Shown: piece by piece, positions 3,858-20,783 of the stretch | Layout: the number at the start of each line of letters is the position of its first letter | Position numbering within the stretch: the first letter of the stretch is position 1 | Source of the DNA: a virus | Reading direction: 5' to 3' (one strand) | Virus record (IMG/VR): IMGVR_UViG_3300008450_000579 | Span: 1 to 20,898 of that record | Length of the DNA: 20,898 bases | Translations under genes and position numbers: made by a program | The notes under the pieces: generated by a model | The model's input: the letters and a program-made list of their open reading frames with translations, nothing else | The model's database searches: none | What the model was told of the DNA's origin: nothing

Positions 3858-5714
3858 TTATAATGATACTACTTTACCTTGAATATCAGTGTTAGGATAT
3901 TTTACCTCAAATATAGAAGGATCTAAACTAGGATAAATAACATTATTTTGTGTGGCACCTTCAATATCATAAGCATATTGTGAGTATCCTATATTTGTTC
4001 CAACTTTATTAACTATACTAATATTTTTAACTGTTTGTACACCATCTATTTGATCTAAAAGAACATATAAATCTCTTAAAATTATTGGTTGATTTATTGA
4101 CCATTTATTAATAGCAAAATATTCTTTTAAAGTATTTATACAATTTAAAAGTACGTCATTATTATTATAGTCAGGTAAAACTACTATTTCAAAATTTACA
4201 CCTATATTAATAATAAATCCATCTTTTATTCTAACTGAATCACCTATCACTCTATATTGTGATAAATAAGTAGATAAATTTTGTTTTAAAGTATTAGAAC
4301 ATGTTCTTAGATTATTATTAGCATCATATGATAAAATATATAAATCTAATGTAGATGGTATTTCACCTGACAGAACATTTTGGGCTTTTACAGGTTCAAT
4401 ATATGCTTTAGCTATTACTCCATATTGTGAAGGTAAACTTAAAGCTCTAACTAAATAGTCATCTTGAGTTACATTTCTAAGTTGTGAACCAAAATTACCT
4501 ATAGCGTTTTGTCTAATTTCTTCTATTGAATCACCATCTTGTCCTCCGTCAGCTGCTGCTGCGTTATTTACTGCTATTGAACCTATAATTGAATTAGCGG
4601 TTGTAGTATTTAAATTAGGAGTTAAAAATACAGGTTGATTAACAATTCCATTTATTGTGTTAGCAGGTACATTTGATTCTACTCCTCCACCTGTTAAATA
4701 TCTAACAGTCAATGTAGTTGATGAAGGTGCTATACCATATGTTTTAGTAAATATAAAATTAGATGGTGAATAGGCTGTAGTTAATTTACTTTGTTCTGAA
4801 GGTAAACCTATACCCACATTAAATGGATTAGGTGTTATTTCTTCATCATTATCATATGCTATACCTGATCCAAATTGGATTTGTAATGAACCTGAGTTTA
4901 TAAATCTAGTGGCAAACCTACGTTGTATTTTTTCTAATTTTAAAATATAAGGAGCATCACCATTATTTACATATGAATTAGGGTCATTAGTATTAGTATT
5001 TTTTATTGGTTGATATACTGTTTCTTGAGCTAAATAATCTACCTCATACCATATATTTCCATCACTATCAACTATATCTAAAATACCAACTATATTATCA
5101 GCATTGATATTTACAGTAGCAAAGGGTGTGGGATCCCCAAAAGTAAAGGTAGTAGTGTTAATAGTAGCAGATATAGCTTTGCGAGTCTTTTTTAATAAGA
5201 AACGATTAGGTTGATTTCCACTAACACTATAAACAGTTACTTCAGTTGGATCTGTTGAACTTGAAACACTAAAATCAATAGAATCTTGTATTAAAAAATT
5301 TACTGGGTTAACTGTTGTTGTTCTAACTGAGGTGTTTGGGGCAAAATATAAAGCGTATGAAAAGTCAGGTACCTGTACACTTCCACTTGTAACTGAAGGT
5401 ACTTGTTGATATACATCTATATCAGCTGTCGCTACACCAGTTACATTTGGTTTATACCCAAACATATAAGCTAATTCATATAAATTATTAGTTTGACGAG
5501 CAAACTGTAGGAATGTTTCTTGGATTTGATTATCTTGATAAAATGATAATATATCACCAACATATGCTGCCATTTCCATAAAAGCCATACCTGGTGAGGC
5601 TGGACTAAAATCAGTATATGTAGTTGGAAAATATGTTTTAGTAAAGTTAATTAAAGCTTGTCTTAATTCACTAAAATCTTTATTAATATATTTTATGTCT
5701 CTATTTTCAGCCAT
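3858..5714 (-). CDS. Baseplate wedge protein, gp6-like (Baseplate_J family)
   Basis: The protein is 618 aa; T4 gp6 is 660 aa. The N-terminus is diagnostic: residues 8-28 carry KYINKDFSELRQALINFTKT, then YTDFSPASPGMAFMEMAAYV (about 33-52) and GDILSFYQDNQIQETFLQ (53-70). This is the opening of gp6/gpJ-type baseplate wedge subunits in many myoviruses. The central part contains a GGGVESNVPANTI segment and DGGQDGDSIEEIRQNA, the latter typical of the baseplate-J core. In T4, gp6 forms the inner ring of the baseplate that links wedges and transmits the contraction signal. The gene directly follows the gp25-like gene (1-nt gap), matching the usual gp25-gp6 pairing. I am confident of the family. Confidence 0.93.
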   Translation of the reverse strand: MAENRDIKYINKDFSELRQALINFTKTYFPTTYTDFSPASPGMAFMEMAAYVGDILSFYQDNQIQETFLQFARQTNNLYELAYMFGYKPNVTGVATADIDVYQQVPSVTSGSVQVPDFSYALYFAPNTSVRTTTVNPVNFLIQDSIDFSVSSSTDPTEVTVYSVSGNQPNRFLLKKTRKAISATINTTTFTFGDPTPFATVNINADNIVGILDIVDSDGNIWYEVDYLAQETVYQPIKNTNTNDPNSYVNNGDAPYILKLEKIQRRFATRFINSGSLQIQFGSGIAYDNDEEITPNPFNVGIGLPSEQSKLTTAYSPSNFIFTKTYGIAPSSTTLTVRYLTGGGVESNVPANTINGIVNQPVFLTPNLNTTTANSIIGSIAVNNAAAADGGQDGDSIEEIRQNAIGNFGSQLRNVTQDDYLVRALSLPSQYGVIAKAYIEPVKAQNVLSGEIPSTLDLYILSYDANNNLRTCSNTLKQNLSTYLSQYRVIGDSVRIKDGFIINIGVNFEIVVLPDYNNNDVLLNCINTLKEYFAINKWSINQPIILRDLYVLLDQIDGVQTVKNISIVNKVGTNIGYSQYAYDIEGATQNNVIYPSLDPSIFEVKYPNTDIQGKVVSL

Positions 5715-5715
5715 T

Positions 5716-6123
5716 TTATTGGAATTCTAATTGTAAATTATCATTTATACCTGTGTCTGCAACATTGTAATATAATTCTACTATTATACTATTATTATCT
5801 GGGTTTTGTAATATATTTAATGACGAAACTATAACACTAGGAAAAAAGTTAGATATTTGAGTTTGAATATCTTCTTTTAAAAAATCTGTATTTCCTGTTG
5901 TTATTTGTTCAAATATAAATGCTCTTAAATTACCACCTAAATTTGGATTTAAGTAACGTTCATTTTTATTTGTTAAAAAATAATTAATTAAATTTGTTTT
6001 AACAGCATCTTTAGTGACATATGTTTGGCCAAAAACTCCAGGTTGATTAAAAGGAATAGACACACCTATGGCTACTCTAGGTTTTCTATCAACTGGAAAT
6101 ATTTTTTTAGCTCCGTATGCCAT
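5716..6123 (-). CDS. Baseplate wedge protein, gp25-like (GPW/gp25 family)
   Basis: The protein is 135 aa, close to T4 gp25 (132 aa). It shows the family pattern: an N-terminal strand with VAIGVSIPFN (17-26), a helix with KDAVKTNLINYFLTNKNERY (39-58), then LNPNLGGNLRAFIFEQ (58-73). The NKNERY...P..GG segment corresponds to the conserved T-x-x-GER...P-x-x-G-S motif of gp25 and type VI secretion TssE. gp25 joins gp6 and gp53 in the wedge and nucleates the sheath. The start ATG overlaps the stop of the 114-aa gene (TAATG), and the gp6-like gene follows after 1 nt. I am confident of the family. Confidence 0.93.
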   Translation of the reverse strand: MAYGAKKIFPVDRKPRVAIGVSIPFNQPGVFGQTYVTKDAVKTNLINYFLTNKNERYLNPNLGGNLRAFIFEQITTGNTDFLKEDIQTQISNFFPSVIVSSLNILQNPDNNSIIVELYYNVADTGINDNLQLEFQ

Positions 6124-6467
6124 TATTTATTAGGATTTAATAAACCCATTATTTGACTCATGTCTACTTCACCTGGTGGTAAGGATGATCCTTCTGCAGC
6201 AGTGTTTGTAGATGTAGGTCTAAACACATTATTACTATTTAAACTAATAGTACCAGATGAGATACCTGCTGTTTCATTTAGAATATCCATGTAACGCTGA
6301 CGTTTTTCAGGAGTAGGTATGACATTTTCAGTGACAGTACCAAAACCTGTACCTACTGGAACTGATTTAGGTGAGCGGACAGCTTCTAAAAGAATTTCTT
6401 TTAATTCTTCTTGAATCGCCTCTTTTACACTTTCTTTAATTATTTTTTTAAATTCACTAGGTTTCAT
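6123..6467 (-). CDS. Small hypothetical protein of baseplate operon
   Basis: I do not recognise this 114-aa protein. The first 30 residues (MKPSEFKKIIKESVKEAIQE, then ELKEILLEAV) form a strongly amphipathic, Lys/Glu-rich helix that could be a coiled coil or docking helix. The rest is rich in Gly, Ser, Thr, Asn and Pro and probably disordered, ending PPGEVDMSQIMGLLNPNK. In operon position it corresponds to a small factor just before gp25, where other myoviruses may carry a wedge or assembly factor. There is no sequence evidence that it is gp53. An 18-nt gap separates it from the gene upstream, one of the few non-overlapping junctions here, and that gap holds an ATATTTAT element. Confidence 0.65.
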   Translation of the reverse strand: MKPSEFKKIIKESVKEAIQEELKEILLEAVRSPKSVPVGTGFGTVTENVIPTPEKRQRYMDILNETAGISSGTISLNSNNVFRPTSTNTAAEGSSLPPGEVDMSQIMGLLNPNK

Positions 6468-8581: not shown

Positions 8582-8919
8582 TACTTACCCTCCTGTATTT
8601 TTTCTATTTCAGCCATTAATTGTGCTCTTTCTTCCTCAGATATACCTAAACTATCACCACTTTCAGATATATTAGACATGGTTCTTTGGATAATGGTAGC
8701 AATTTTAACTAATTGCTCATCATTTTTAACATCAATTTCTAGGTATTCTTTAATTAAGGGAACAATTAATGTAGCATCACTTATTTCTTGTACAAGAGGC
8801 TTCAACTCAGCTATTAACGCTGATATTTGGCGAGATTTTTTCTTTTGGTTATCATAAATCTCTTCAAGTAAATTTGAAAATGTTTTTTTACCAAATACTA
8901 TTTTATTAAAATCACTCAT
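8581..8919 (-). CDS. Small helical protein, first gene of baseplate operon
   Basis: I do not recognise this 112-aa protein. It is almost entirely predicted helix: residues 15-50 (FSNLLEEIYDNQKKKSRQIS, then LIAELKPLVQEI) and 55-112 (VPLIKEYLEIDVKNDEQLVK and a Glu/Lys-rich end). It lacks membrane segments and a signal peptide. Its stop overlaps the ATG of the gp5-like gene (TAATG), so it is probably translated with the spike. A chaperone, assembly factor or small hub component would fit the position; that is inference. It starts 36 nt after the sigma factor stop, and the gap contains candidate promoter elements. Confidence 0.7.
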   Translation of the reverse strand: MSDFNKIVFGKKTFSNLLEEIYDNQKKKSRQISALIAELKPLVQEISDATLIVPLIKEYLEIDVKNDEQLVKIATIIQRTMSNISESGDSLGISEEERAQLMAEIEKIQEGK

Positions 8920-8932
8920 ATTTATTAGTATC

Positions 8933-8948
8933 TATTTATAATAAATAT
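8933..8948 (-). promoter_or_regulatory. Candidate late promoter of baseplate operon
   Basis: Between the sigma factor stop and the 112-aa start the minus strand reads CTATATTTATTATAAATAGA. It contains ATATTTAT (8948 to 8941), 21 nt before the ATG, and an exact T4-late-type TATAAATA (8940 to 8933), 13 nt before the ATG. No TTG sits at the -33 distance, as expected for gp55-type promoters, which lack a -35 element. I cannot tell which of the two octamers would be used. Confidence 0.4.
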
Positions 8949-8955
8949 AGGATAA

Positions 8956-9657
8956 TTAAAACTTTACATATCCATACTCTAGATAATGAGCATAGCCATT
9001 TTTAAATATAGAGTATAATGTATTGGCTATTTTGGTTATTTTAGGTGTTTTAACATCAATTATTTCTCGTATATAAATATATAACGCTTTTTTATTAAAT
9101 ATATCTAAATATTCACGTTTACGAAATAACTCAAGAACAGCATCAGCTACTTTAGCATCATTTTCTTTAGGAAAAATTTTATAAATATTATTAGTACAAT
9201 AAGTTATATATTGCTCTATAAACCAATATAACTGATCATTAGTACTAATATTATTATCTAATGTGTATGAAAATTCTTCATTTTCCTCAATATCCTCAAC
9301 CATTACTTTATCAACACGCTTTTTATAATTTTTAGCATTATCAATAATTAAATAACGTTTAGCAATTGTCCCAAAATATGAATATGCTTTAGCTCCTTTA
9401 TTTGGGTTGAATAAGTGAATTTTAGAAAGTAAAAATGTAATTACTTCATGTTGTAAATCCTCAATATTATCTACCTCAGTATAATAAAACTTGAAGGTAT
9501 GAATAATATTTTCAGTTAATTTAAAAAAGGCAGGATGTATTTTCTGATAGTATATTCTACTTCTTTCCTTAAAAGAATCTGTATTGTTATATAATACTAT
9601 AGCCTGTTCAGTTTCAGAAGTGAAGTAGGGAATAGACTTTTTTCTAACTTTAGTCAT
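8956..9657 (-). CDS. RNA polymerase sigma factor, T4 gp55-like (late transcription)
   Basis: The protein is 233 aa; T4 gp55 is 185 aa. Residues 55-115 match sigma region 2: EVDNIEDLQHEVITFLLSKI (61-80) followed by FNPNKGAKAYSYFGTIAKRY (83-102) and a basic stretch, KNYKKRVDK. The D-L-x-x-E...F-x-P-x-K-G-x-x-x-x-x-Y..-A-K-R pattern is the core-binding and -10-melting part of sigma-70 proteins. I see no region 4 helix-turn-helix, as in T4 gp55, which recognises only a -10-like late promoter. The acidic stretch EDIEENEEF follows region 2. It is placed last before the baseplate operon, which suits a switch to late gene expression. The 91-aa gene upstream ends 5 nt before it. Confidence 0.8.
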   Translation of the reverse strand: MTKVRKKSIPYFTSETEQAIVLYNNTDSFKERSRIYYQKIHPAFFKLTENIIHTFKFYYTEVDNIEDLQHEVITFLLSKIHLFNPNKGAKAYSYFGTIAKRYLIIDNAKNYKKRVDKVMVEDIEENEEFSYTLDNNISTNDQLYWFIEQYITYCTNNIYKIFPKENDAKVADAVLELFRKREYLDIFNKKALYIYIREIIDVKTPKITKIANTLYSIFKNGYAHYLEYGYVKF

Positions 9658-10716: not shown

Positions 10717-10980
10717 TTATTGTAACCCAAATCCTTCCTCAGGTGATAATGGTTCTTGTTGAATAAATGATTTTACCTCGGCTAATATTTCCTCAGTGTT
10801 CTCAATAGTCTTAATAAACTCTTGAATTGGTGCTCCTCGGTTTACCATAAACCTTAGCGCCTTTAATTGCGCCTCGATATTCTCTATCTTACGCGTTGAT
10901 AATTCTCTATACCTCATATTATTATATTTGTTTCCTAATTCCTTAAACCCGTAATTAGAATATACGGGTACTATATTCAA
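10717..10980 (-). CDS. Small hypothetical protein, start uncertain
   Basis: From the first ATG (10980) this would be an 87-aa protein. From the internal ATG at 10917 (Met22, MRYRELSTRKIENIEAQLKA) it would be 66 aa. The second form is a compact charged helical protein that ends EEGFGLQ. The second start deserves attention because a promoter-like TTGGCT-N17-TATATTCT and a 7-bp inverted repeat lie across the first 21 codons. The gene also uses more G/C-containing codons than its neighbours (for example GCG, CGC, GGC and CGT). It ends 2 nt before the HD gene. I do not recognise the family. Confidence 0.6.
   Translation of the reverse strand: MNIVPVYSNYGFKELGNKYNNMRYRELSTRKIENIEAQLKALRFMVNRGAPIQEFIKTIENTEEILAEVKSFIQQEPLSPEEGFGLQ
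10947..10969 (-). repeat. Inverted repeat ACCCGTA-N9-TACGGGT
   Basis: Seven-base perfect arms (10969-10963 and 10953-10947 on the minus strand) flank a 9-nt centre. The repeat covers the putative -7 element of the promoter-like sequence in the 5' part of the 87-aa frame. It could be an operator or an RNA hairpin in a leader; it could also be chance plus coding sequence. Confidence 0.45.
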
Positions 10981-10987
10981 TAGCCAA
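10957..10987 (-). promoter_or_regulatory. Variant of the TTGGCT-N17-TATNTTTA promoter
   Basis: TTGGCT (10987 to 10982) lies 2 nt after the stop codon of the 138-aa gene. It is followed by exactly 17 nt and then TATATTCT, which matches the family -7 box at TATATT but not in the last two bases. The same placement at the 3' end of an upstream gene is seen for the stronger members. If used, transcription would start inside the annotated 87-aa frame and favour Met22 as start. Confidence 0.4.
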
Positions 10988-10989
10988 GC

Positions 10990-11406
10990 TTAGGATAAAC
11001 TTTGTTCTACTATATCTTTAATTGGTAAGATAAAAGCACATTTTTCATACTCTTCATTTTCCTCAAAATAAGACATAGATAATTTTAAAGCTGTTAAAAA
11101 CTCTAAACTCGCTTTATCTTTTATAGTCTGAAGATGTATATCATCATTTATATCTAATCTATTGATAAAAACGTAGGATCTAGTGTATATAAGGTATTCT
11201 CCAGCATTAATAACATCATTCATATCCATATTAGGGAAGGCGGCTTTAAACACACTTATGTGGGCTAAATTAAAATTAGAATGATTCATTATTATCTTAG
11301 TGAACATACCTACCCAGAAAGAAGGGTGTTCACTAATGTCTTTATACACTTGTTTTTTGACATTAATGTTGTCTTCAAATAAACCAAATATTTTATCTAT
11401 ATCCAT
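10990..11406 (-). CDS. Hypothetical helical protein, 138 aa
   Basis: I do not recognise this protein. It begins MDIDKIFGLFEDNINVKKQV at the ATG at 11406. A TTG two codons upstream would add two residues, but ATG is preferred and no signal favours TTG. The sequence is soluble, helical and fairly rich in Phe, Ile and Asn (WVGMFTKIIMNHSNFNLAHI at about 31-50), with no membrane segment and no catalytic motif I can name. Downstream, its stop is 2 nt from a promoter-like TTGGCT. It follows the 50-aa lipoprotein gene after a 50-nt gap that contains an inverted repeat. It probably belongs to the transcription unit that ends in the sigma factor. Confidence 0.7.
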   Translation of the reverse strand: MDIDKIFGLFEDNINVKKQVYKDISEHPSFWVGMFTKIIMNHSNFNLAHISVFKAAFPNMDMNDVINAGEYLIYTRSYVFINRLDINDDIHLQTIKDKASLEFLTALKLSMSYFEENEEYEKCAFILPIKDIVEQSLS

Positions 11407-11417
11407 AAACAAGGGAA

Positions 11418-11451
11418 AATCCCTGACTAGTTTTAAACTTCATCAGGGATT
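11418..11451 (-). terminator. Inverted repeat downstream of the lipoprotein gene, possible terminator or attenuator
   Basis: Nine-base perfect arms AATCCCTGA and TCAGGGATT flank a 16-nt loop. The structure starts 6 nt after the lipoprotein stop and, on the transcript, is followed by TTTCCC, a poor U-tract. It could partly terminate transcription after the lipoprotein gene, or fold in the leader of the 138-aa gene, whose ATG is 11 nt further on. The stem is GC-rich against its surroundings. Confidence 0.45.
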
Positions 11452-11456
11452 AAATG

Positions 11457-11609
11457 TTAGTTTACTGAATCTACAGTAAGTGTATCTTGAACAGATACTG
11501 AGTCAATTACAGTTGATGTTGAATCAGTTGTTGATACTGTTTTGTTTTCTGTTGATTGGCAAGAGATCATAACTACTGCCAATAGTGCTAGTGCTACTAC
11601 TTTTTTCAT
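11457..11609 (-). CDS. Very small predicted lipoprotein (50 aa)
   Basis: This short gene encodes 50 residues: MKKVVALALLAVVMISC, then a Ser/Thr/Val-rich tail (QSTENKTVSTTDSTSTVIDS and 13 more residues). It has a textbook type II signal: KK at positions 2-3, a hydrophobic core, and a lipobox ending in Cys17 (MISC) as common in Bacteroidota. The mature peptide would be about 34 residues, almost without charge or aromatics, consistent with a flexible lipid-anchored peptide in the periplasm or on the outer membrane. Its own promoter (TTG-N19-TATATTTA) lies upstream, and the leader contains GTTTGTTTGTTT on the plus strand. Possible roles are superinfection exclusion, a spanin-like lysis function or receptor masking; none is shown. 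Confidence 0.8.
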   Translation of the reverse strand: MKKVVALALLAVVMISCQSTENKTVSTTDSTSTVIDSVSVQDTLTVDSVN

Positions 11610-11640
11610 TTTTGTTTGTTTGTTTTTAATTGTTTAATTA

Positions 11641-11670
11641 TAAATATAAAATGTTCCTTTAATTAGGCAA
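11641..11670 (-). promoter_or_regulatory. Bacteroidota-type promoter of the lipoprotein unit
   Basis: TTGCCT (11670 to 11665), 16 nt, then TATATTTA (11648 to 11641), giving TTG-N19-TATATTTA. The ATG is 31 nt further on. The -33 box overlaps the last codons of the 362-aa gene (AAA TTT GCC TAA). The published Bacteroidota consensus is -33 TTG and -7 TAnnTTTG with about 19-21 bp between. Confidence 0.6.
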
Positions 11671-12751
11671 ATTTAATGTCCTCTATTTTTATACCTGATA
11701 AACTTTTAAATTCATTATTTAATCTGTCAATGAAATATTCTTTAATTAGTGATTCATGTTCTGTATTTGTAAAATTTTTAACTAAACCACCTGCAAATTG
11801 TTTCCAATCTTTATCCCAATATATTTCTTTAGATCTAAATGTATTTAATAGAGTTTTTAAATTACGATTATTCATTGTTAATTGATTTATAATACCTCTA
11901 TTACGTCTAGTATTACTATTATTTCCCATATTAACAAAATTATTTAACATTAAAGATATTTTGTATAATGTATAATCATTAATTTCTAAATTAGAAAGCA
12001 TTTCTAATCCTAATTTAATATTAGCTGCATCTTTACTATAGATCATATCTTTTAATGTATTTTCAATTTCATTATCTAATTGAACACCTTCTTTATTAAG
12101 ATCTGATATAAGATCTTCATCAAATACTACTTTAATATTAGGATTATTATAAATAAAGTTTATAATCTCTAATACATCTATCATTTTATTATTTCTATAA
12201 ACACGATATCCTTCATCTTTAATAAGATGAGTATTAATAAATGATGAGTATTTTTTTGAATACTTTAATAGACTTTTATTTGTGCCTTTATTTACATATT
12301 CTTCTGGGATATAAAGCCATTTATTAAGATCTTTAGGTTTATCTTTAAATAATTCCTCACTTCTTTTAATAGTTTTAAAAACTATATTAACAAACTCTTC
12401 ATTAAGAAAATAAACTGTTTTAGATTCTTTTAATTCATTGTTTCCTAAAATATCTAATAATATTTTTTTACTTAATAAAATACAAGTACTTTGTTGTATT
12501 CTAGTTGTACGTTTAATACCTTTTTCTGTTATAAATTCCTTTAATTTAAAACGAGGTATATCACTAGCTTGACTTGTATATATAATATCTTTACTATCTA
12601 ATTTATTATTAGAATTTAGTAATTCATTTATTTTAGTTTTTGAATTATTTATATAATCTAATTCAAACCAAACAAACTTATTCCAATATGAATGTTGTAA
12701 TTCATCATTATAGCTATTATAATAAATTTCCTTTACTTTATTTTTATTCAT
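11663..12751 (-). CDS. Hypothetical 362-aa protein co-transcribed with the MoxR ATPase
   Basis: I do not recognise this protein. It is soluble, very rich in Asn, Lys, Ile and Leu, and mostly helical. Residues 1-110 contain WNKFVWFELDYINN and a Thr/Arg stretch (GIKRTTRIQQ). Residues 220-310 (DNEIENTLKDMIYSKDAANI, LGLEMLSNLEINDYTLYKIS) look like helical repeats. There is no catalytic motif I can name. It begins 8 nt after the MoxR gene ends and has no promoter of its own, so the two are almost certainly one transcription unit. A MoxR ATPase often works with a partner encoded next to it; this protein could be a client, adaptor or substrate. That is inference. Confidence 0.75.
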   Translation of the reverse strand: MNKNKVKEIYYNSYNDELQHSYWNKFVWFELDYINNSKTKINELLNSNNKLDSKDIIYTSQASDIPRFKLKEFITEKGIKRTTRIQQSTCILLSKKILLDILGNNELKESKTVYFLNEEFVNIVFKTIKRSEELFKDKPKDLNKWLYIPEEYVNKGTNKSLLKYSKKYSSFINTHLIKDEGYRVYRNNKMIDVLEIINFIYNNPNIKVVFDEDLISDLNKEGVQLDNEIENTLKDMIYSKDAANIKLGLEMLSNLEINDYTLYKISLMLNNFVNMGNNSNTRRNRGIINQLTMNNRNLKTLLNTFRSKEIYWDKDWKQFAGGLVKNFTNTEHESLIKEYFIDRLNNEFKSLSGIKIEDIKFA

Positions 12752-12759
12752 AATCTTTA

Positions 12760-13947
12760 TTATTTAACAATATACTTAACTAAATCTTTATTTAACATCA
12801 ATAAACTAAATTTAGATGAATTTTCATTGTAAATTGATTTTACCATTTGATAACAAATATCAGTTGCAAAAACACCTTCAATTACAATTTTACTTAAACG
12901 ATCAATAATTGGTTTTTCTATTTTATTTGTTTTAGCATAAACACCTAAATAGTTAGTAATCCTAGTACCTAATGTTGAAGCAATATCTGCTCTATAATTC
13001 TTATCTTTACCAACTAAACCTTTTAAAGTAGTCATAACATATTTTTCATCTTGTTCAAATATATTTTGAGGTGAAATCATTTTATCTAATTTATTATTAA
13101 TAAACATTGTAAATAAACTAGCAAATTCTTGACCAACACTACCTTCACCTATCATTTGAATCAAAGGTAATTCATTTTCAAATGATTTAATAGATGATAT
13201 TGAATTAAAAAACATTACAATACTTCTAGCATTTATCTCTTTAGTAACTAACTCAGGATGCATTAATAAAAAGTTTATACATCTACCATCTAATCCATTT
13301 TCTTCAGCCCATTTGCCCCAAGTATTTAAATCAAATTTTAGATTAGCAGATATAAATCTTGTTTTCTGGGCTGTATCAATACTATTAACTAAATAATCAC
13401 CATTATCAGGATTAGCAGTTAATATAATATGCCAATCTTTAGGTAATTTCCAACTGATATATTGTTGACGATCTATTAGTTCCATAACAGCTTGAATAAA
13501 CCTAACATCAGCTCTATTCCAATCATCTAATAGTAACACACCACCATTTGTTTTACCACTAATCCATTCAGGTGGACAATAACTCATTCTATTTTTAGAA
13601 GTTGATTTATAACCTAATTTTCTATATTCATCAAATGCATGTTCATCAACCCACATTTTATCTCCATCTAATTCCATTTCAAATTGGCGAATTGGAAAAC
13701 CTACTAAATCACCAATTTCTTCAATTTGTGCTAAATTTAATTTAACAAAATTTAAACCTAATTCATCTGCTAATTGAATTATTGATGAGGTTTTACCAAT
13801 ACCTGATTCACCAACTACTTCTGTTGATACAGGTGATTTACCATTATCTTGTAAATAACGATTGTTAGTGATAATGTGTTTTAAAAAATCCTTTAGTTCA
13901 TTTGGATTTAATGATAATGCTTCTGTTTTTGATGTTTTTTTAGCCAT
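12760..13947 (-). CDS. MoxR-type AAA+ ATPase (AAA_5/dynein-related)
   Basis: This is a 395-aa protein. Residues 46-53 (GESGIGKT) are the Walker A motif. GGVLLLDDWNRAD (135-147) is Walker B in the form typical of MoxR ATPases (LLLDEhNRa, here DD). ILTANPDNGDY (175-185) holds the sensor-1 Asn, and AQKTRF (193-198) holds a candidate arginine finger. MoxR ATPases form hexamers that remodel proteins, usually together with a VWA-domain partner; one is encoded two genes upstream. The Walker B second acidic residue is Asp142 rather than the commoner Glu; ATP hydrolysis may still occur. The gene has its own promoter and a leader that ends AATAAAGGTTATG, as does the DUF932 gene. Confidence 0.9.
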   Translation of the reverse strand: MAKKTSKTEALSLNPNELKDFLKHIITNNRYLQDNGKSPVSTEVVGESGIGKTSSIIQLADELGLNFVKLNLAQIEEIGDLVGFPIRQFEMELDGDKMWVDEHAFDEYRKLGYKSTSKNRMSYCPPEWISGKTNGGVLLLDDWNRADVRFIQAVMELIDRQQYISWKLPKDWHIILTANPDNGDYLVNSIDTAQKTRFISANLKFDLNTWGKWAEENGLDGRCINFLLMHPELVTKEINARSIVMFFNSISSIKSFENELPLIQMIGEGSVGQEFASLFTMFINNKLDKMISPQNIFEQDEKYVMTTLKGLVGKDKNYRADIASTLGTRITNYLGVYAKTNKIEKPIIDRLSKIVIEGVFATDICYQMVKSIYNENSSKFSLLMLNKDLVKYIVK

Positions 13948-13976
13948 AACCTTTATTAATTAATTTTTTTACATTT

Positions 13977-14007
13977 TAAATATAACAAATTTTTCCTAGA
14001 AAGCCAA
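13977..14007 (-). promoter_or_regulatory. Bacteroidota-type promoter of the MoxR unit
   Basis: TTGGCT (14007 to 14002), 17 nt, then TATATTTA (13984 to 13977); TTG to TAT distance is 20 nt. The ATG follows 29 nt later. The -33 box is formed by the last codons of the nucleotidyltransferase gene (GAT TTG GCT TTC TAG). The spacer carries a loose inverted repeat TTTC-TAG-GAAA. Confidence 0.7.
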
Positions 14008-14700
14008 ATCTGGGTCACTAGTATATTTTCTTTTATTGGTTCTATATTTTTCAATATCTTTTAATACACGAAAATATTTATCCGCATTTTTTCTATGAAA
14101 TAATTCTTCTAAATCTTCCCAATGCTTAAATTGTTTACCAACCCTAACATCAAAAGCATATTTAGCTTTAGCAGCTAATATAATTGATGGGTGTGTTAAT
14201 TTAATTCCCCATGTTTGATCATCATGTGTTTTATATGTGATTGGTAGGTAATCACGTTTTGATAGATAAGTATGATTAAAAAAATCTATTTTATATCTTT
14301 GTATTAACTGTTTATATCCACTGGGTTGGAGATTACTATCCATAATTTCTACCTCTTCTAATTTTGTAAATAATAGCAAATCCTGTTTTAAAAGTTTTTC
14401 ATCTACAATATGTCCTTCAGGTTTATAAGGATTTTCATCTCTATTAATCAAATTAAAGAAATCAACTATAATAGATAATTCTTGTTGAGTTAGAGGTTCA
14501 GTTAAAGAAAAATCTAAATCAGGTTGTCTAAGTGTTTCTTCAAACTCCATTAAACCTAACATTTTCATAGCTAAGCTTCCTCCTAAAACTACTTTATCAG
14601 ATAAAGTAAAATAAGGTAATATAAATTGTTCATACATTGGATGAAGCATTTTACTACATACTAAACCCTCAGTATTATTAACATAAAAATATGATTTCAT
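13996..14700 (-). CDS. Nucleotidyltransferase-fold protein, AbiEii-like
   Basis: This is a 234-aa protein from the ATG at 14700. A longer frame from a GTG at 14760 exists, but it would overlap the previous gene by 59 nt, while the ATG follows that gene's stop directly (TAATATG). The nucleotidyltransferase pattern is visible: GGSLAMKML (40-48), then RQPDLDFSL (59-67) with D61 and D63, a third acid at D139 in YKIDFF, a Lys pair in HPSIILAAKAKYAF (170-183), and KHWEDLEELF (192-201). GG-S...R-x-x-D-x-D...K...KD-x-x-DL is the layout of AbiEii/DUF1814-type enzymes, which transfer nucleotides to RNA or protein in toxin-antitoxin systems. No AbiEi-like antitoxin is adjacent. The target is unknown. 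Confidence 0.7.
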   Translation of the reverse strand: MKSYFYVNNTEGLVCSKMLHPMYEQFILPYFTLSDKVVLGGSLAMKMLGLMEFEETLRQPDLDFSLTEPLTQQELSIIVDFFNLINRDENPYKPEGHIVDEKLLKQDLLLFTKLEEVEIMDSNLQPSGYKQLIQRYKIDFFNHTYLSKRDYLPITYKTHDDQTWGIKLTHPSIILAAKAKYAFDVRVGKQFKHWEDLEELFHRKNADKYFRVLKDIEKYRTNKRKYTSDPDLAF

Positions 14701-14701
14701 A

Positions 14702-15970
14702 TTATCTTTTAATTTGAACTTTAGCTCCAGGCAAATTATAAGTTGATGTACCATTTTCACTTATAACCCATAATATAGGTCTAACTGGTTTAGTTTTTGG
14801 AGCTGGACATTCACCATCAGTTAAATAAATAATGTTTTGATATTTATGTTTATGTTCATTTAAGTAAACCATTACAGGTTCAAAATCAGTTCCTCCTCTA
14901 CCTTTAACATCAATTTTTTCTTTTTGTTTACCATCATATTTGTATACTCTTTGAATAGCGGCATCACATTCAATAATATCTATTTCAGTGCCTGTTTTAT
15001 AGATATGATGTATTTCATTAAAAAATTCTTGTAAATCTTTAGCACCAACTGAACCTGAGGTATCTATTGCTACTAAAGTATTTTTACGTTGTTTAATTTT
15101 TAATGCTGGATTACCCACAAAACGTTTATTTAATTTACGTCTTGTTTTCTTAGTATATACTTTAGTAGCCATACCATTAAAACGTCTTAAATATGCTTTC
15201 CAATCAATTACTGGTTCTACTATTTCAAATAAACCATTAATATAATCTGCTATTTCTGAAGGTATAGTCCCTCTTGATTTGTTTATTTGTTCTGCTATTT
15301 CTTTTAATTGATGGTCAATTTGTTTACCTAATAACTTTTTATCAGCCTCACTCATACCCTCAAATTCTTTCCACATTTCATGAGTACAAGGAACAGTCAT
15401 GGTTGAACCATCATCTAATGTTATAGTTATTTCTGTTCCATCTCCTGATCCAGAAATACCAGGCATACTTATATTTCCTTGCAAAGCATTAACCATGTTA
15501 GCTATATTACCATTAGGATTATTTTGAATTTCTTGTTGTAATAAATCATAATAAACTCTAGTACCTGCTTTTTTAGGTAAGTTAAGTTCTTTAAATGGTT
15601 TTTTATCTATTTCCAAACCCTCCCAAGTTTTACCTTTCCATTCTTTTTCAATAAATTGATTAATCTCAATATCAGCGGCTATATTTAACAATTCTTTATT
15701 TCCATAAGAATCAAGTTGAGATAAATGATGAAATGCTATATGTAACAACTCATGTTTTAAAATAGCCACTTTAGTTTGTTCATCTTGTTTAGACCAAAAT
15801 TCAGGATTAATCATTAAGGATGTGTTTATATTTTCTTTACAAACACAGGCAGTGCTAATACTTTTATTTAGTTTTTTATTTAAACCAATTAAAAATAGAC
15901 CATAAAATGGTTCTTTAAACATCAAAGTTTTAGAGTACTTTGCAATCTCAGAGTGAATATTATCTATCAT
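14702..15970 (-). CDS. Metallopeptidase-like protein with C-terminal VWA domain (DUF2201 type)
   Basis: This is a 422-aa protein. The N-terminal region contains HELLHIAFHH (73-82), a zinc-binding HExxH site, followed by AADIEINQFIE (98-108), which supplies acidic residues as in related metal-dependent peptidase-like domains. The C-terminal VWA domain begins LVAIDTSGSVG (299-309), giving the MIDAS D303-x-S305-x-S307. GRGGTDFEP (357-365) and YLTDGECPAP (382-391) supply the Thr361 and Asp385 positions. This two-domain layout is widely annotated as a VWA-like putative metallopeptidase and is usually found beside a MoxR ATPase, as here. The VWA domain probably recruits or is remodelled by the ATPase. 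It shares a promoter with the nucleotidyltransferase gene, 1 nt downstream. Confidence 0.88.
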   Translation of the reverse strand: MIDNIHSEIAKYSKTLMFKEPFYGLFLIGLNKKLNKSISTACVCKENINTSLMINPEFWSKQDEQTKVAILKHELLHIAFHHLSQLDSYGNKELLNIAADIEINQFIEKEWKGKTWEGLEIDKKPFKELNLPKKAGTRVYYDLLQQEIQNNPNGNIANMVNALQGNISMPGISGSGDGTEITITLDDGSTMTVPCTHEMWKEFEGMSEADKKLLGKQIDHQLKEIAEQINKSRGTIPSEIADYINGLFEIVEPVIDWKAYLRRFNGMATKVYTKKTRRKLNKRFVGNPALKIKQRKNTLVAIDTSGSVGAKDLQEFFNEIHHIYKTGTEIDIIECDAAIQRVYKYDGKQKEKIDVKGRGGTDFEPVMVYLNEHKHKYQNIIYLTDGECPAPKTKPVRPILWVISENGTSTYNLPGAKVQIKR

Positions 15971-15989
15971 AAATTTTATTTTTACATTT

Positions 15990-16020
15990 TAAATATAGGA
16001 AAGGCTCCCTGAGGAGCCAA
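15990..16020 (-). promoter_or_regulatory. Bacteroidota-type promoter of the VWA/nucleotidyltransferase unit
   Basis: TTGGCT (16020 to 16015), 17 nt, then TATATTTA (15997 to 15990). The ATG is 19 nt further on. The spacer contains a perfect palindrome (see 16003-16018) that overlaps the -33 box, a placement suited to an operator. Confidence 0.7.
16003..16018 (-). repeat. Palindrome GGCTCC-TCAG-GGAGCC (copy 1)
   Basis: Six-base perfect arms with a 4-nt centre. The palindrome is part of a 22-bp sequence (16001-16022) that recurs unchanged at 17218-17239. It overlaps the -33 box of a promoter, so it may be a repressor site. It could instead form an RNA hairpin ending the DUF932 transcript, but only three Ts follow, so I rate a terminator as less likely. 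Confidence 0.65.
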
Positions 16021-16041
16021 ACCTATGTTTAGTAATCAATA

Positions 16042-16842
16042 TTAGTTAGTATATTCAAGAGCTAATTTATATAACTCTGAATTCAACTTCATGTCTTGTT
16101 GAAAGTTCTTTATTTTACGAGCTTTACGTGTTCTAGTACCATATGAATAATTAAACATTCCATGTGTTAATTTTTCTTGAACTACATTATAAACACTCCA
16201 TAAATCAGAACCTTTATCTTCAGGACGAGTTGGTGATAACAATTCATTTAAGTCAATTGTGATGTTTTTAACTTCATCCTCATTGAAACGAACTTCAAGT
16301 GCTTTTTTAGCAAAATCAAGAGCCATATCTTGATTAAGTTCAATTTGTTTAAACTTATTCATTGAATCAATTGTTAGTGGAAGTTTCTCAACCATTGATT
16401 TAATAGTTTCTTGTAGTGTTTCAAAATTGTAACCCATATGACGAATTTTCATATCTTCAAAATTCTTATCTGATACTACTAGTCCGTTTTCACAAACCAT
16501 TCTAAACAAACCAGCTGTGAAAGTAAAAGCATTTTTACCATCATGACTATTAGTTAATAGAATTTGTGGGTAAACATTATCACCATCTTTTCCTTCAATG
16601 ATCAAATCATTATTACGGAATACAATTAGGTGTTTCTGAAATCCAACTCCTTTACGAGCACGTACTTGTTTACAATCAATCACTCCCCAACCTAAAAGAG
16701 TCATATCATCAATGATACGTTCAGTTGAGATATGTGAATACTTAGTTGAAGTTGATGGAGCAGATGTTTTAGTAAAAATTGAACCTGCTTTTTCTTTAAT
16801 TTGTTCTTTAGTTAAGAACGTGTTGTTTTGAATATTTAACAT
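16042..16842 (-). CDS. DUF932 (phage/plasmid-like) protein
   Basis: This is a 266-aa protein. The DUF932 core is clear: KGVGFQKHLIVFRNNDL (64-80), then YPQILLTNSHDGKNAFTFTA (91-110) and GLFRMVCENGLVV (111-123). The N-S-H-D-G...F..G.-R-x-V-C-x-N-G-L pattern is characteristic of this family, which is common in phages and plasmids of many hosts. Its biochemical function is unknown. The length is in the family range and the start is supported by a leader ending AATAAAGGTTATG. It has its own host-type promoter and lies alone in its transcription unit, between the 106-aa gene and the VWA gene. Confidence 0.9.
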   Translation of the reverse strand: MLNIQNNTFLTKEQIKEKAGSIFTKTSAPSTSTKYSHISTERIIDDMTLLGWGVIDCKQVRARKGVGFQKHLIVFRNNDLIIEGKDGDNVYPQILLTNSHDGKNAFTFTAGLFRMVCENGLVVSDKNFEDMKIRHMGYNFETLQETIKSMVEKLPLTIDSMNKFKQIELNQDMALDFAKKALEVRFNEDEVKNITIDLNELLSPTRPEDKGSDLWSVYNVVQEKLTHGMFNYSYGTRTRKARKIKNFQQDMKLNSELYKLALEYTN

Positions 16843-16868
16843 AACCTTTATTTATTAATTTTACATCT

Positions 16869-16899
16869 TAAATATAACATCTTACTCTTGAGGAGCCAA
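16869..16899 (-). promoter_or_regulatory. Bacteroidota-type promoter of the DUF932 gene
   Basis: TTGGCT (16899 to 16894), 17 nt, then TATATTTA (16876 to 16869). The ATG is 26 nt further on. The -33 box is inside the last codons of the 106-aa gene (GAT TTG GCT CCT CAA GAG TAA), so these bases have a double use. Confidence 0.7.
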
Positions 16900-17202
16900 A
16901 TCAAATGTTTCCCATTCACGTTTTTTCATTGGAACTGGTGTGATTAGATGTTGAATTTTTTCACCATTTGGTTCTTTACAAATAGTATTAGTCATGAAAT
17001 AATAGATAGGACCATTATATTCATCATGAATTGGGTTATTATCTTTATCCCAAGTAGTTATTCTACGTTTACCACTATATGCTCTAAATTCTCTAGGTGT
17101 TACTCTATGCCATTTTTGCATTGACTCAACATAGATTTCTAGACATCTCCATGATTCAAAATCATAAATAATTTTAACTGTATTACCTTTCTTTTCACTC
17201 AT
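16882..17202 (-). CDS. Hypothetical protein, 106 aa
   Basis: I do not recognise this protein. It reads like a compact soluble beta-rich domain: IIYDFESWRCLEIYVESMQK (11-30), WHRVTPREFRAYSGKRRIT (31-49), then IYYFMTNTI and a C-terminus WETFDLAPQE. Basic and aromatic residues in the middle could contact nucleic acid, but there is no named motif. The start ATG lies only 4 nt after a TATCTTTA box, and the next Met is at residue 27 or so, so if that promoter is used the message would be leaderless or nearly so. The last codons encode the -33 box of the DUF932 promoter. It is a single-gene unit. Confidence 0.7.
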   Translation of the reverse strand: MSEKKGNTVKIIYDFESWRCLEIYVESMQKWHRVTPREFRAYSGKRRITTWDKDNNPIHDEYNGPIYYFMTNTICKEPNGEKIQHLITPVPMKKREWETFDLAPQE

Positions 17203-17206
17203 AATG

Positions 17207-17237
17207 TAAAGATAACGAAGGCTCCCTGAGGAGCCAA
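17207..17237 (-). promoter_or_regulatory. Bacteroidota-type promoter of the 106-aa gene
   Basis: TTGGCT (17237 to 17232), 17 nt, then TATCTTTA (17214 to 17207). The ATG begins only 4 nt after the -7 box. The surrounding GTTATCTTTACATTATG closely resembles GTTATATTTACAATATG before the 284-aa lipoprotein gene. Confidence 0.65.
17220..17235 (-). repeat. Palindrome GGCTCC-TCAG-GGAGCC (copy 2)
   Basis: This is the second copy of the palindrome described at 16003-16018, within 22 identical bp (17218-17239). It again overlaps the -33 box of a promoter and stands 30 nt after the stop codon of the YkuD-like gene, so a terminator role for that gene remains possible. Confidence 0.65.
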
Positions 17238-17264
17238 ACGTTTTCTTTAAAAATATGTAAGTGA

Positions 17265-17855
17265 TTACTTTATATCTGCACTCTCGATTAAAGTGTAAGT
17301 AAATGAAGGACCATGAATCTTTGCTGCTTGACGAGCAATAATCATAAATTCTTCAAAGTTTGCTGCCTTTTTAAACACTTGACATCCCTCAGACCAGTTC
17401 TCAACATAAGTTGAATCAACACCTGCTTTATGAATATTGATACCAAAGATACCTTCTTGTATTTTAGTTTCATCATAAGTCATATCTTTATTTGCATCAC
17501 GATAAACTTTAACTGGTTTAGCTTGTTTTAAAGCCTCATATTTACCTTGATGTAAACCTAAAGTATGTGAACCACGATACTGTCCTTCAACCAAACGAGC
17601 AACACCTGCTGCATTATGGAATTCTCTTACTCCTTTGGTACCTGGATCAGTTGTGCAAGCCCATTGCTTGAATACCCACGCTCCATTTACTTTGTAAGAT
17701 ACAGTCATTGTATCATCAAATACATTGGTAACTTTATTACCAGTAGCTGAATTACGAACACCAACTATGTTTAAATCATAGTCTTTTGCTCCTTCAAACC
17801 ATACATAACCTTTTGCTTTTACAGCTGTTTCGATTTGTTCTTTTGTGTAAGTCAT
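17265..17855 (-). CDS. YkuD-like (L,D-transpeptidase-fold) protein, candidate cell-wall enzyme
   Basis: This is a 196-aa protein. Residues 138-159 hold the diagnostic pair of motifs: GINIHKAGVDS with H142, then NWSEGCQVF with S155 and C158. H-x(n)-S-x-G-C is the catalytic layout of YkuD/L,D-transpeptidases; related small proteins occur in phage genomes. Cys158 would be the nucleophile. The upstream part (FEGAKDYDLNIVGVRNSATG, and GSHTLGLHQGKYEA at 95-108) fits the beta-barrel of the fold. There is no signal peptide. Following the tail fibre gene by 11 nt, it may act in lysis or on host peptidoglycan, especially as the spike protein lacks a lysozyme. Whether it cleaves or crosslinks cannot be read from sequence. 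Confidence 0.7.
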   Translation of the reverse strand: MTYTKEQIETAVKAKGYVWFEGAKDYDLNIVGVRNSATGNKVTNVFDDTMTVSYKVNGAWVFKQWACTTDPGTKGVREFHNAAGVARLVEGQYRGSHTLGLHQGKYEALKQAKPVKVYRDANKDMTYDETKIQEGIFGINIHKAGVDSTYVENWSEGCQVFKKAANFEEFMIIARQAAKIHGPSFTYTLIESADIK

Positions 17856-17866
17856 ATATTTAATTA

Positions 17867-19786
17867 TTAAATTGATCCACTTATCAAAGTCGCAACCTGT
17901 AATTTTAATTCTTCTATTTGTGTTTGTTGTTCTTGAACAGCTTTAGTTAATATAGCTATTAAACCTCTATCATATATACCCCATTGCTGACCTGTAGCAG
18001 GTGTATTAGCGGCTTCTTCAGACACTGAGTTTACTTCTTGAGCATAAAAACCTAATTGTCTAGTATTTCCAAATCCAGTTGATGGTTTCCAATAAAAGTA
18101 TCTAGGTTTTAAAGCCATTACTTTTTCAATACCATTTTCAATAAAACCATCTGCTGTTTTTAAATTTTTATCAGAGGATACAGATATTGTTCCGTTAGCT
18201 CCTGTAGTTGTAACTGTCCCGTTAGAGGTGTAATTATTAAATTCTATAACACCATTTTGATTTAATGATAGAGTTAATTTTTCCGTGCCTCCTGTTTGTT
18301 GTTGAGTATAAAACTCTATACCTGCTGGGTATTGTCCTCCAGTCCAATTTCCTTGGGCTACAAATTTGATATAAGGACCGTATTGGTTGTATTTAGATGT
18401 ATATCCTGCTATAATTCCTATTGCTTGGTCTGTTTGAGGATCAGCAGTTGAACTTGAGTAATCTAATCGTATATGAGGATTTGTTCTAGTAGGATTAGTA
18501 ATGAGTCTGTTTATTAAGCTACCTGTTATAGTAGTATTTCCATTTACATCTAATTTAGTAGTAGGAGTAGTTTTACCAATACCCACATTATTACTACCAT
18601 TAATTGAAAGTACACTAGTTCCACTTCCATAAACACCACCTCCTATACTAAATATAGAATTAAAATCTTCTATATAATACGCATTACCTGAGGCATTATT
18701 AGGATAAAATTGTATATGACTTGCATTAGTTACACCTGGGGTACCTATAGTCACAATACCTGAGGCTGAGAAATTGGTAGTGGTGAAATTAGTAGTGGTC
18801 ATAGTAGAACTAGATATAATACCAGTTGATGTGATATTACTTGTAGCTGTAATACTACCCGTTACTGTAGCGTTACCATTAACATCTAATGGAGATGTTG
18901 GTACATATTTATTTATACCTATAAATCCACCATTAGTTACTATAGCTATATTTCCGCTTGCATTTTCATTTTCAAGAATGATATTTGTTGAACCTGAAGC
19001 AGCAAAACCAAAATAAGCACGTCTAGTACTATTATCTGGATACCACTGAATATAACTGTGGTTTGTACCACGTAAGTCTAAAGTGCCTCCATTATTAAAT
19101 AATATTGTTGAACCTGTTATAATAGTATCACCACTAACATTTAAAGGAACAGTTGGAGCAGTAGTACCTATACCTACATTACCATCTCTATTAATAACCA
19201 TTTTTTGACTGCCATTAGTATAGAATCTATGACTACCAGTTGTACCTGTAGATATAAAATAAACTAAATCTAAAGGAGCAGAAGATGACCTATTAATACT
19301 TTCAATATAATTAGCATTTAATCCAACAGAATAATCCATCTCAATACTTTGAGAGCCGTTATTAGAAACAGATAATCTAGTTAGTGGAGTAGAAGTACCT
19401 AAACCAGTATTACCACTCACAAGAACACTACCAGCAGAGGCAGTAAATCCAACATTTATACCAACTACACCTAAAGCACCTAATGGACTTAAAGTCAGTA
19501 AATCTGAACCAGCATATGGATTTGCACCTGTACCTATAGTAAGAGTACCACTAGGATTCTTAGCATAAAAAACAGAGTTTCCCTGTGCGTCTGGATTAAA
19601 AATTAATGGTGATTGAGTATTTTTTCCTAATTTTCCTAAATTAGTAATACCTTCTACACTTAGTGATCCTGTTATTAAAATATCGATTGTACTTCCCGAT
19701 GCTGTTAAAGCATCTATAATTTGAGTCACGTGAGCGGGTTGAATGATACTTCCCGATGTTATACCTGCTTTTGATAAAATGGCCAT
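17867..19786 (-). CDS. Tail fibre/appendage protein with C-terminal S74 intramolecular chaperone
   Basis: This is a 639-aa protein. The C-terminus holds a peptidase S74 (endosialidase-type) chaperone: SDKNLK (538-543, predicted Ser538/Lys543 autocleavage), then MALKPRYFYWK (557-567), LGFYAQEV (578-585), and a coiled-coil tail AVQEQQTQIEELKLQ. Such domains fold trimeric fibres and then cut themselves off, here releasing about 102 residues. The body contains four related units at about 127-141, 203-226, 288-311 and 400-423, for example NVGIGTTAPTVPLNVSGD and NVGIGKTTPTTKLDVNGN, typical of beta-rich fibre shafts. The N-terminus (MAILSKAGITSGSIIQPAHV) presumably attaches to the virion. It is preceded by an ATATTTAT element, 21 nt from the ATG. 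Confidence 0.9.
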   Translation of the reverse strand: MAILSKAGITSGSIIQPAHVTQIIDALTASGSTIDILITGSLSVEGITNLGKLGKNTQSPLIFNPDAQGNSVFYAKNPSGTLTIGTGANPYAGSDLLTLSPLGALGVVGINVGFTASAGSVLVSGNTGLGTSTPLTRLSVSNNGSQSIEMDYSVGLNANYIESINRSSSAPLDLVYFISTGTTGSHRFYTNGSQKMVINRDGNVGIGTTAPTVPLNVSGDTIITGSTILFNNGGTLDLRGTNHSYIQWYPDNSTRRAYFGFAASGSTNIILENENASGNIAIVTNGGFIGINKYVPTSPLDVNGNATVTGSITATSNITSTGIISSSTMTTTNFTTTNFSASGIVTIGTPGVTNASHIQFYPNNASGNAYYIEDFNSIFSIGGGVYGSGTSVLSINGSNNVGIGKTTPTTKLDVNGNTTITGSLINRLITNPTRTNPHIRLDYSSSTADPQTDQAIGIIAGYTSKYNQYGPYIKFVAQGNWTGGQYPAGIEFYTQQQTGGTEKLTLSLNQNGVIEFNNYTSNGTVTTTGANGTISVSSDKNLKTADGFIENGIEKVMALKPRYFYWKPSTGFGNTRQLGFYAQEVNSVSEEAANTPATGQQWGIYDRGLIAILTKAVQEQQTQIEELKLQVATLISGSI

Positions 19787-19807
19787 TTAATAAAATATTA
19801 TTTGACC

Positions 19808-19815
19808 ATAAATAT
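19808..19815 (-). promoter_or_regulatory. Candidate late promoter of the fibre gene
   Basis: ATATTTAT lies 21 nt before the fibre ATG, exactly the distance found for the first baseplate gene. No TTG is at the -33 distance (the bases there are ATA), which sets it apart from the host-type promoters in this window. It is compatible with a gp55-like factor that uses only a -10 element. Confidence 0.35.
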
Positions 19816-19893
19816 ATCTAAGTTGTAAAATGATTATATGCATGTCCTTCCACCTAGCGACCTCTCATATGTATATACAGATATAAAAAATAT
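19816..19893. other. Intergenic stretch with a GC-richer core
   Basis: This gap between the 284-aa lipoprotein gene and the fibre gene contains GTCCTTCCACCTAGCGACCT (19843-19862), much richer in G/C than its surroundings, flanked by TATATGCATG and CATATGTATATA. I see no gene, no strong hairpin and no tRNA-like fold. TATGTATATA followed by GATATAAAA recurs near 20795-20821. Confidence 0.4.
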
Positions 19894-20748
19894 TTATTTA
19901 GGATCAAACACTATATTCATTCTATATTGGCGCTTAATACTCTCACCATAATCAGAATTAAATAAAATTTCAATTGTTATAGTGGCAGTATCACCAACCA
20001 TACTTTTATCAAAAAATATATTACATTTAGGTTCATAATTGTATTTTGAATACACAGCTAATAAATCAATAGCATATGGACAAGTATAACAAAAATGTTT
20101 TGATATTTGATATCCTACAATATTTAATGGTGGGTGATTATTTGCTATATCAACCATAGTATAAGTACGATTTCCAATAGGTATGGGGTCTTTAAAACGC
20201 CTATCTCTGTATAAACCCAAATGTGAATACACTGGGAAACGATACTGAATAGTATCAAATAAAACCCAGTAATCAGAATCAAAAGAGGTTTCCATTAATG
20301 GAACTCCATTAATAACATACTCAGGATGTAACTCGTCTGTTTTACCCCTAATAGAAAAATAATTAGGTCCCCAAACAGGAACATGCCAATATCCATTTTG
20401 ATCTTGTTTAGCTGCAGCAGGTGTTTCAATCCAAAACTCAGCATCACAGTTACCATCTAAACATGGGTAAGGATGATCTGGGATTTCATTACATGAGGTA
20501 AAACCTAGAGTTAATAGTAGCAAACCTATGAAAGCATTTTTTCCAAACCATTCTTTAATGTAAGCATTAGGAAATGTTTTTGGTAACCATCTTTTATTTA
20601 AAAAATCTATTATCATAATTAAATTTATTTTACGTTTGAGTTGTTCTTTGTTTTCTGTTTTTAGACCAACTAAAATACCTCTAGCTAATTTTCTATCGTC
20701 ATGGTTGGCTTTAATCATATGTTCAATTTCGTCCATTAAATCATCCAT
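19894..20748 (-). CDS. Predicted lipoprotein with long N-terminal cytoplasmic-like extension
   Basis: This is a 284-aa protein. Residues 70-86 (KNAFIGLLLLTLGFTSC) are a lipoprotein-type signal with Cys86 as lipid-modified residue. It is followed by a polar, Pro- and aromatic-rich domain (NEIPDHPYPC and onward) with several Cys (C96, C101 and the FCYTC pair) that could form disulphides outside the cytoplasm. What is odd is the 70 residues before the signal: a charged helical segment (DDLMDEIEHMIKANHDDRKL) and a Lys-rich stretch. Either the true start is an internal Met (for example Met45 at 20616, giving a still long signal), or the extension stays in the cytoplasm and the hydrophobic segment is an anchor. 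A surface or periplasmic role such as superinfection immunity is possible. The family is not recognised. Confidence 0.7.
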   Translation of the reverse strand: MDDLMDEIEHMIKANHDDRKLARGILVGLKTENKEQLKRKINLIMIIDFLNKRWLPKTFPNAYIKEWFGKNAFIGLLLLTLGFTSCNEIPDHPYPCLDGNCDAEFWIETPAAAKQDQNGYWHVPVWGPNYFSIRGKTDELHPEYVINGVPLMETSFDSDYWVLFDTIQYRFPVYSHLGLYRDRRFKDPIPIGNRTYTMVDIANNHPPLNIVGYQISKHFCYTCPYAIDLLAVYSKYNYEPKCNIFFDKSMVGDTATITIEILFNSDYGESIKRQYRMNIVFDPK

Positions 20749-20752
20749 ATTG

Positions 20753-20783
20753 TAAATATAACATCTCTTACCTGGTGAGCCAA
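20753..20783 (-). promoter_or_regulatory. Bacteroidota-type promoter of the 284-aa lipoprotein gene
   Basis: TTGGCT (20783 to 20778), 17 nt, then TATATTTA (20760 to 20753). The first ATG lies 4 nt after the -7 box, so use of that ATG would need a leaderless message; Met5 (20736) and Met11 (20718) are alternatives. Confidence 0.65.

Follow-up and report, generated by a model that had tools for sequence, protein, structure and literature searches.

A rigidly spaced promoter-like family and a gp55-like sigma factor in a clade of T4-like Bacteroidota phages

The 20.9-kb IMG/VR virus contig analysed here (the window), whose minus strand carries all of the main genes, repeats a short element, TTGGCT-N17-TATNTTTA, in front of several of these genes. 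This raises the question of whether the element is a promoter, which polymerase would read it and which genes it would serve. An earlier note on this DNA had claimed five exact minus-strand copies with a 17-nt spacing, each placed 4–29 nt before a gene, and all five are present as described (Table 1). A lack of enrichment over shuffled sequence, which that note had named as evidence against the family, was not found, as the five sites, all of them on the gene strand, compare with a mean of 0.001 exact sites in dinucleotide shuffles of the window and a maximum of one in 1000 such shuffles. A relaxed scan of the window that allowed three mismatches was at background (37 matches vs 28) and thus the signal in the window resides in the exact motif. 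Between 12760 and 16842 the window clusters genes for a DUF932 protein, a DUF2201 VWA/metallopeptidase and a MoxR-like ATPase, each with a candidate promoter of its own; the PHROGs label 'HNH endonuclease' on the VWA protein is apparently wrong.

Table 1. Features of the window discussed in the text; promoter, terminator and sigma assignments are predictions.
Feature	Position	Strand	Remarks
T4-like baseplate wedge genes	3858..6123	(-)	Putative late block, without TTGGCT promoter
Late-type motif ATATTTATAA	6472..6481	(-)	5' of gene 6123-6467, just ahead of baseplate genes
Late-type motif ATATTTATTA	8939..8948	(-)	5' of gene 8581-8919
gp55-like late sigma factor (putative), 233 aa	8956..9657	(-)	Region 2 of sigma-70; search for region 4 negative
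Hairpin ACCCGTA...TACGGGT	10947..10969	(-)	Variant -7 box in loop; -9.5 kcal/mol; terminator- or leader-like
Variant candidate promoter TTGGCT-N17-TATATTCT	10957..10987	(-)	Upstream of cluster holding putative late sigma gene
Late-type motif ATATTTATAA	11638..11647	(-)	5' of small lipoprotein-like gene 11457-11609; sixth site of the earlier note
AAA_5 (MoxR-like) ATPase gene	12760..13947	(-)	Behind candidate promoter 14007
Exact candidate promoter	13977..14007	(-)	29 nt 5' of AAA ATPase gene; preceding gene's stop codon within spacer
DUF2201 metallopeptidase/VWA protein gene	14702..15970	(-)	Behind candidate promoter 16020
Exact candidate promoter	15990..16020	(-)	19 nt 5' of VWA/metallopeptidase gene
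Hairpin GGCTCC-TCAG-GGAGCC	16003..16018	(-)	Inside spacer of candidate promoter 16020
DUF932 protein gene	16042..16842	(-)	Behind candidate promoter 16899
Exact candidate promoter	16869..16899	(-)	26 nt 5' of DUF932 gene; preceding gene's stop codon within spacer
Exact candidate promoter TTGGCT-N17-TATCTTTA	17207..17237	(-)	4 nt 5' of ATG at 17202
Hairpin GGCTCC-TCAG-GGAGCC	17220..17235	(-)	In 17237 spacer; 5' arm part of -33 box; T-rich DNA after, terminator-like
Late-type motif TATATTTAT	19808..19816	(-)	5' of tail fibre gene 17867-19786
Exact candidate non-late promoter TTGGCT-N17-TATATTTA	20753..20783	(-)	4 nt 5' of ATG at 20748

Relatives of the window were gathered via its VWA and DUF932 proteins and 26 whole records were scanned for the motif; a DNA-level search among named phages found no relatives. 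The pattern TTTGGCY-N17-TATNTTTA is present in 13 of the 26 records, and its reversed form, used as a control, has no match in any of them. One record, G001 (154,840 bp), has a 123-bp direct terminal repeat, which suggests that it is a complete genome, and carries 29 copies of the motif, all on the gene strand and one of them duplicated in the terminal repeat. When the spacing was freed to N8-N28, all 29 copies fell at N17 and none elsewhere, and five further records likewise populate N17 almost exclusively. The core of the family can be written as TTG-N20-TAT[AC]TTTA, with the 20-nt gap found in nearly all sites of the motif-bearing records and with the end of the motif mostly 4–30 nt from the ATG. 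The last base of the -7 element (position -5) is A and not G, as had been noted before, in 153 of 160 sites chosen without using that base. The statement that GCT is fixed after TTG is wrong, since among 202 clade sites picked without bias TTG is followed by GCT in 114, GCC in 35 and GCA in 5 (154 together), and the cultured relative immuto, described below, has the box GTTGCY. TTG at the fixed gap has G as its next base in about 97% of the 202 sites and is usually preceded by T, and GGCY after TT is a strong preference, not a fixed sequence. The rigid N17 spacing, the confinement to the gene strand and the placement 5' of genes support the earlier proposal of a promoter-like family with fixed geometry, and, judged from sequence comparison, a rigidly spaced family of putative promoters precedes non-structural genes in this clade of T4-like Bacteroidota phages.

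The leaders 3' of the early-type sites in L009, L020 and L033 are A-rich, and a conserved start context, AAAGGTTATG or AAAAGTTATG, often closes them right before the gene. Neither this motif class nor the second one described below was found in a distant clade (G012, G014, G017 and G018) with a VWA protein about 45% identical, in which genes lie on both strands (L264-L275, L287-L296). Similar proteins occur in Pseudomonadales and Campylobacteraceae MAGs, and that clade may therefore infect other phyla. An uncultured 484-kb relative, LR756508, has no TTG-N20 class within the 150 kb read.

Many of the sites also hold structure in their spacers. In 22% of 236 unique sites, against an expected 1%, the spacer and -33 box together form a fold that beats 99% of spacer shuffles, and the hairpins begin in the -33 box and extend into T-rich DNA. 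Their stems vary among sites with paired changes (GGCTCC/GGAGCC, GGCCCC/GGGGCC and GGCCTC/GAGGCC). The candidate promoters often overlap the stop signal of the preceding gene, and sites with a hairpin mostly lie directly after the upstream stop codon. T is modestly enriched in the first 4 nt after the hairpins (0.60 vs 0.48), which is partly explained by the -7 region being T-rich at all sites. The hairpin-bearing sites may be read as terminator and promoter in one, with termination itself likely. One could go further and suppose that hairpins and GGCY box alike serve purely as terminators or RNA elements, promoter activity not being the function under selection, and strong hairpins at about a quarter of the sites would suit such a role; however, box, -7 element and exact 20-nt gap are retained in most sites although these are free of hairpins, which makes this a very improbable account of the family.

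The geometry of the sites invites comparison with the host. The Bacteroidota sigma-A promoter has TTTG at -33 and TAnnTTTG at -7, and in F. johnsoniae the -5 G is near-invariant and the -33 box hardly visible (PMC6847099, PMC7366714). As the earlier note held, the TTG-to-TA distance and the TAnnTTT core of the phage sites do match this promoter. Like sigma-ABfr promoters (PMC6847099, PMC7366714, PMC9723704), the phage sites have TTTG or TTG at -33, a gap of about 20 nt, TAnnTTT and an expected start a few nucleotides after the -7 box. They differ in that the gap is exactly 20 nt, the box is extended to TTTGGCY, A replaces the near-invariant G at -5, and the -33 element dominates, whereas it can hardly be seen in F. 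johnsoniae.

Counts upstream of genes show the same mixture of likeness and difference. TAHHTTTG shows 3.3-6-fold enrichment 5' of genes in four Bacteroidota genomes, and A at -5 is accepted to a degree (1.5-2.6-fold enriched). Upstream of phage genes TAHHTTTG is not enriched and TAHHTTTA is, with TTTG almost only at gap 20, and promoters of the sigma-70 type (TTGACA/TATAAT) were not found in these phages. A scan of 395 Bacteroidota genomes gave 40 matches to the full motif, which is not above the reversed-letter control, itself an imperfect match in composition, so that use of the phage element on host chromosomes was not seen. Host chromosomes as a source of the motif were rejected on this background-level count. 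The box is thus more conserved than the host requires, as had been suggested. With TAHHTTTG unenriched in the phages and the full motif at background in the hosts, the promoter geometry appears to be that of the host and the element as such that of the phage. To call the motif direct evidence for the host phylum was an overstatement, and the host assignment rests mainly on a cultured relative.

The closest such relative is Flavobacterium phage vB_FspM_immuto (NC_055915, Immutovirus), in whose record the promoter motif is unannotated. Its sigma-like and baseplate proteins match at 44% and 47% identity, respectively, and the gene order HD protein, sigma, baseplate is common to both. TTG stands at a gap of exactly 20 in 32 of the 40 TAHHTTTA sites of immuto, where 7 of 20 spacers form hairpins, and the early-type sites lie mostly at 60–77 kb, 5' of small genes of unknown function. 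As in the window clade, TTG-N20-TAT[AC]TTTA precedes small non-structural genes and a second motif, ATATTTATAA, precedes structural genes; immuto differs in its box, GTTGCY in place of TTTGGCY, and in its leader, GGTATCAATAATTAAAA. Since the core is shared and the box letters are not, TTG-N20-TAT[AC]TTTA is common to two lineages. Microcystis phage Mel-JY01 (PP395634) likewise has TTG-N20-TAnnTTTG sites and a homologous sigma, but its -5 base is the host-type G and its letters after TTG vary. Its twelve TTG-N20-TA[ACT][ACT]TTTG sites 5' of genes (L324-L327) agree with the sigma-A consensus of Bacteroidota, and its proteins are similar to those of a Flavobacterium phage; the stated cyanobacterial host should be checked, in case the culture contained a Bacteroidota bacterium.

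The second motif emerged from k-mers enriched 5' of other genes and has no conserved upstream box. The site at 11670 (TTGCCT-N16), which had been counted as a sixth member of the TTGGCT family, lacks the -33 box and spacing of that family, and its -7 region, ATATTTATAATTAAA, fits the second motif; it is better read as a member of a second, late-type promoter class. The gene behind it, 11457-11609, encodes a 50-aa lipoprotein-like product (MKKVVALALLAVVMISCQSTENK...). In immuto the late-type sites precede the genes for tail sheath, tail tube and other structural proteins, and with structural blocks delimited by us from the record annotation, 9 of 14 late-type sites fall within them vs 1 of 33 early-type sites (Fisher p = 1.3e-5). 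A -10-only box before structural genes, as expected of T4-type late promoters, is therefore found in this group.

A candidate for the factor that reads this class is the product of 8956-9657. It is 80% identical to a protein of G001, and its profile found homologues in all six records searched, including Mel-JY01 and immuto, where the homologue is gp118 (L321, record 78174-78872), annotated as hypothetical. Pfam Sigma70_r2 is matched by 13 of 17 homologues, with the match of the window copy falling below the Pfam cut-off, and sequence searches of PHROGs and the PDB did not reveal the sigma, so that its identity is visible only via Pfam region 2 and fold comparison. The AlphaFold model is helical and of middling confidence; sigma factors make up nearly all of its listed PDB neighbours, with T4 gp55 (7d7c_F) ranking second among the structural matches (Z 10.5, 7.4 Å over 114 residues), and Foldseek E-values against the PDB are weak. 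A search for sigma region 4 in this clade found none, and hence no second full sigma. These data suggest, with moderate statistical support, that the protein is a gp55-like sigma with region 2 only. The seventh site of the earlier note (10987, TTGGCT-N17-TATATTCT) lies upstream of the cluster that ends with this gene. It is conserved in relatives but is a variant of the motif and not an exact copy; the variant is kept by L011 and L015, and the L014 version is looser. Site and cluster probably form one operon.

Given such a factor, one possibility is that the gp55-like sigma reads both classes, as ATATTTA is common to TATATTTA, a -7 box, and ATATTTATAA, the late box, and the sigma gene is present in every record searched with its profile. 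However, factors of the gp55 type do not use a -35 element (PMC2988020), few parts of these sites are as conserved as the -33 box, and the two classes diverge after TTTA and in genomic position, and we give this idea very little credence.

What would read the TTG-N20 class is then the main issue. Four records and immuto gave no match to an RNA polymerase large subunit, although a divergent virion polymerase could escape such a search. With neither an enriched TAHHTTTG class nor a polymerase large subunit, the TTG-N20 class is the only visible one for host polymerase on entry, which favours host sigma-A acting at a phage-optimised -33 box with a fixed spacing. We think it probable that the clade uses early or continuous host sigma-A promoters with nested terminators, followed by a gp55-like late switch. 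The TTG-N20 sites would be the non-late (early, possibly continuous) promoters, at which the primary sigma-A of the host RNA polymerase would recognise two elements separated by exactly 20 nt, TTTG (-33) and TA(T)nTTT (-7), the phages keeping the spacing rigid, extending the -33 box and ending the -7 element in A where the host has G. The spacer would, at about a quarter of sites, be the intrinsic terminator of the preceding gene, and small transcription units would end where the next begins. The gp55-like sigma, encoded in the cluster downstream of the variant site at 10987, would steer host core polymerase to the -10-only class (ATATTTATAA) 5' of structural genes.

Against this scheme, A stands at -5 where the host has a near-invariant G, so that unaided sigma-A may recognise the sites only weakly, and the full motif does not form a class on host chromosomes. 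The main rival to host sigma-A is that a phage factor (a sigma appropriator, an anti-sigma or a second sigma) retargets host polymerase, in which case the sites would be middle and not immediate-early promoters, and the strong TTTGGC box and -5 A would mark phage promoters that the modified holoenzyme prefers over those of the host. The host primary sigma would be redirected so that TTTGGCY at exactly 20 nt is needed and A at -5 is accepted, with promoters doubling as terminators of the preceding gene. If true, phage genes would stay active during the shut-off of host promoters, which require the G and make little use of -33. The prevalence of A at -5, the background-level count in 395 genomes, a spacing that hardly ever varies and box letters specific to each lineage are all consistent with such a factor. 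Against it, the phages show no enrichment of TAHHTTTG, which would be the alternative immediate-early class, the region 4 search offers no second full sigma, and hosts tolerate A at -5 to some extent, and on balance we consider a retargeting factor rather unlikely.

As a pair the two motifs would allow two gene classes to be mapped from sequence alone in genomes of uncultured phages and would provide a marker for this phage clade, and immuto with Flavobacterium is a cultured phage-host pair suited to testing. Short promoters that end one unit and start the next could also be useful genetic parts for Bacteroidota, where standard promoters are not read. The new features are the lineage-specific -33 box, the A at -5, the near-absolute spacing and the nested terminators. 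In the open-access literature we found no paper on the motif, on these features or on transcription of these phages, and no account of gene timing in large lytic Bacteroidota phages.

Two promoter classes with a late sigma are the logic of T4 and already known. The late box of this clade, ATATTTATAA, is unlike the T4 late TATA box, which is TATAAATA. T4 late transcription, which employs gp55 at a -10-only promoter with no conserved -35 site (PMC2988020), also pairs a region-2 sigma with a promoter class that has no upstream box and lies before structural genes, as the putative late system of these phages appears to do.
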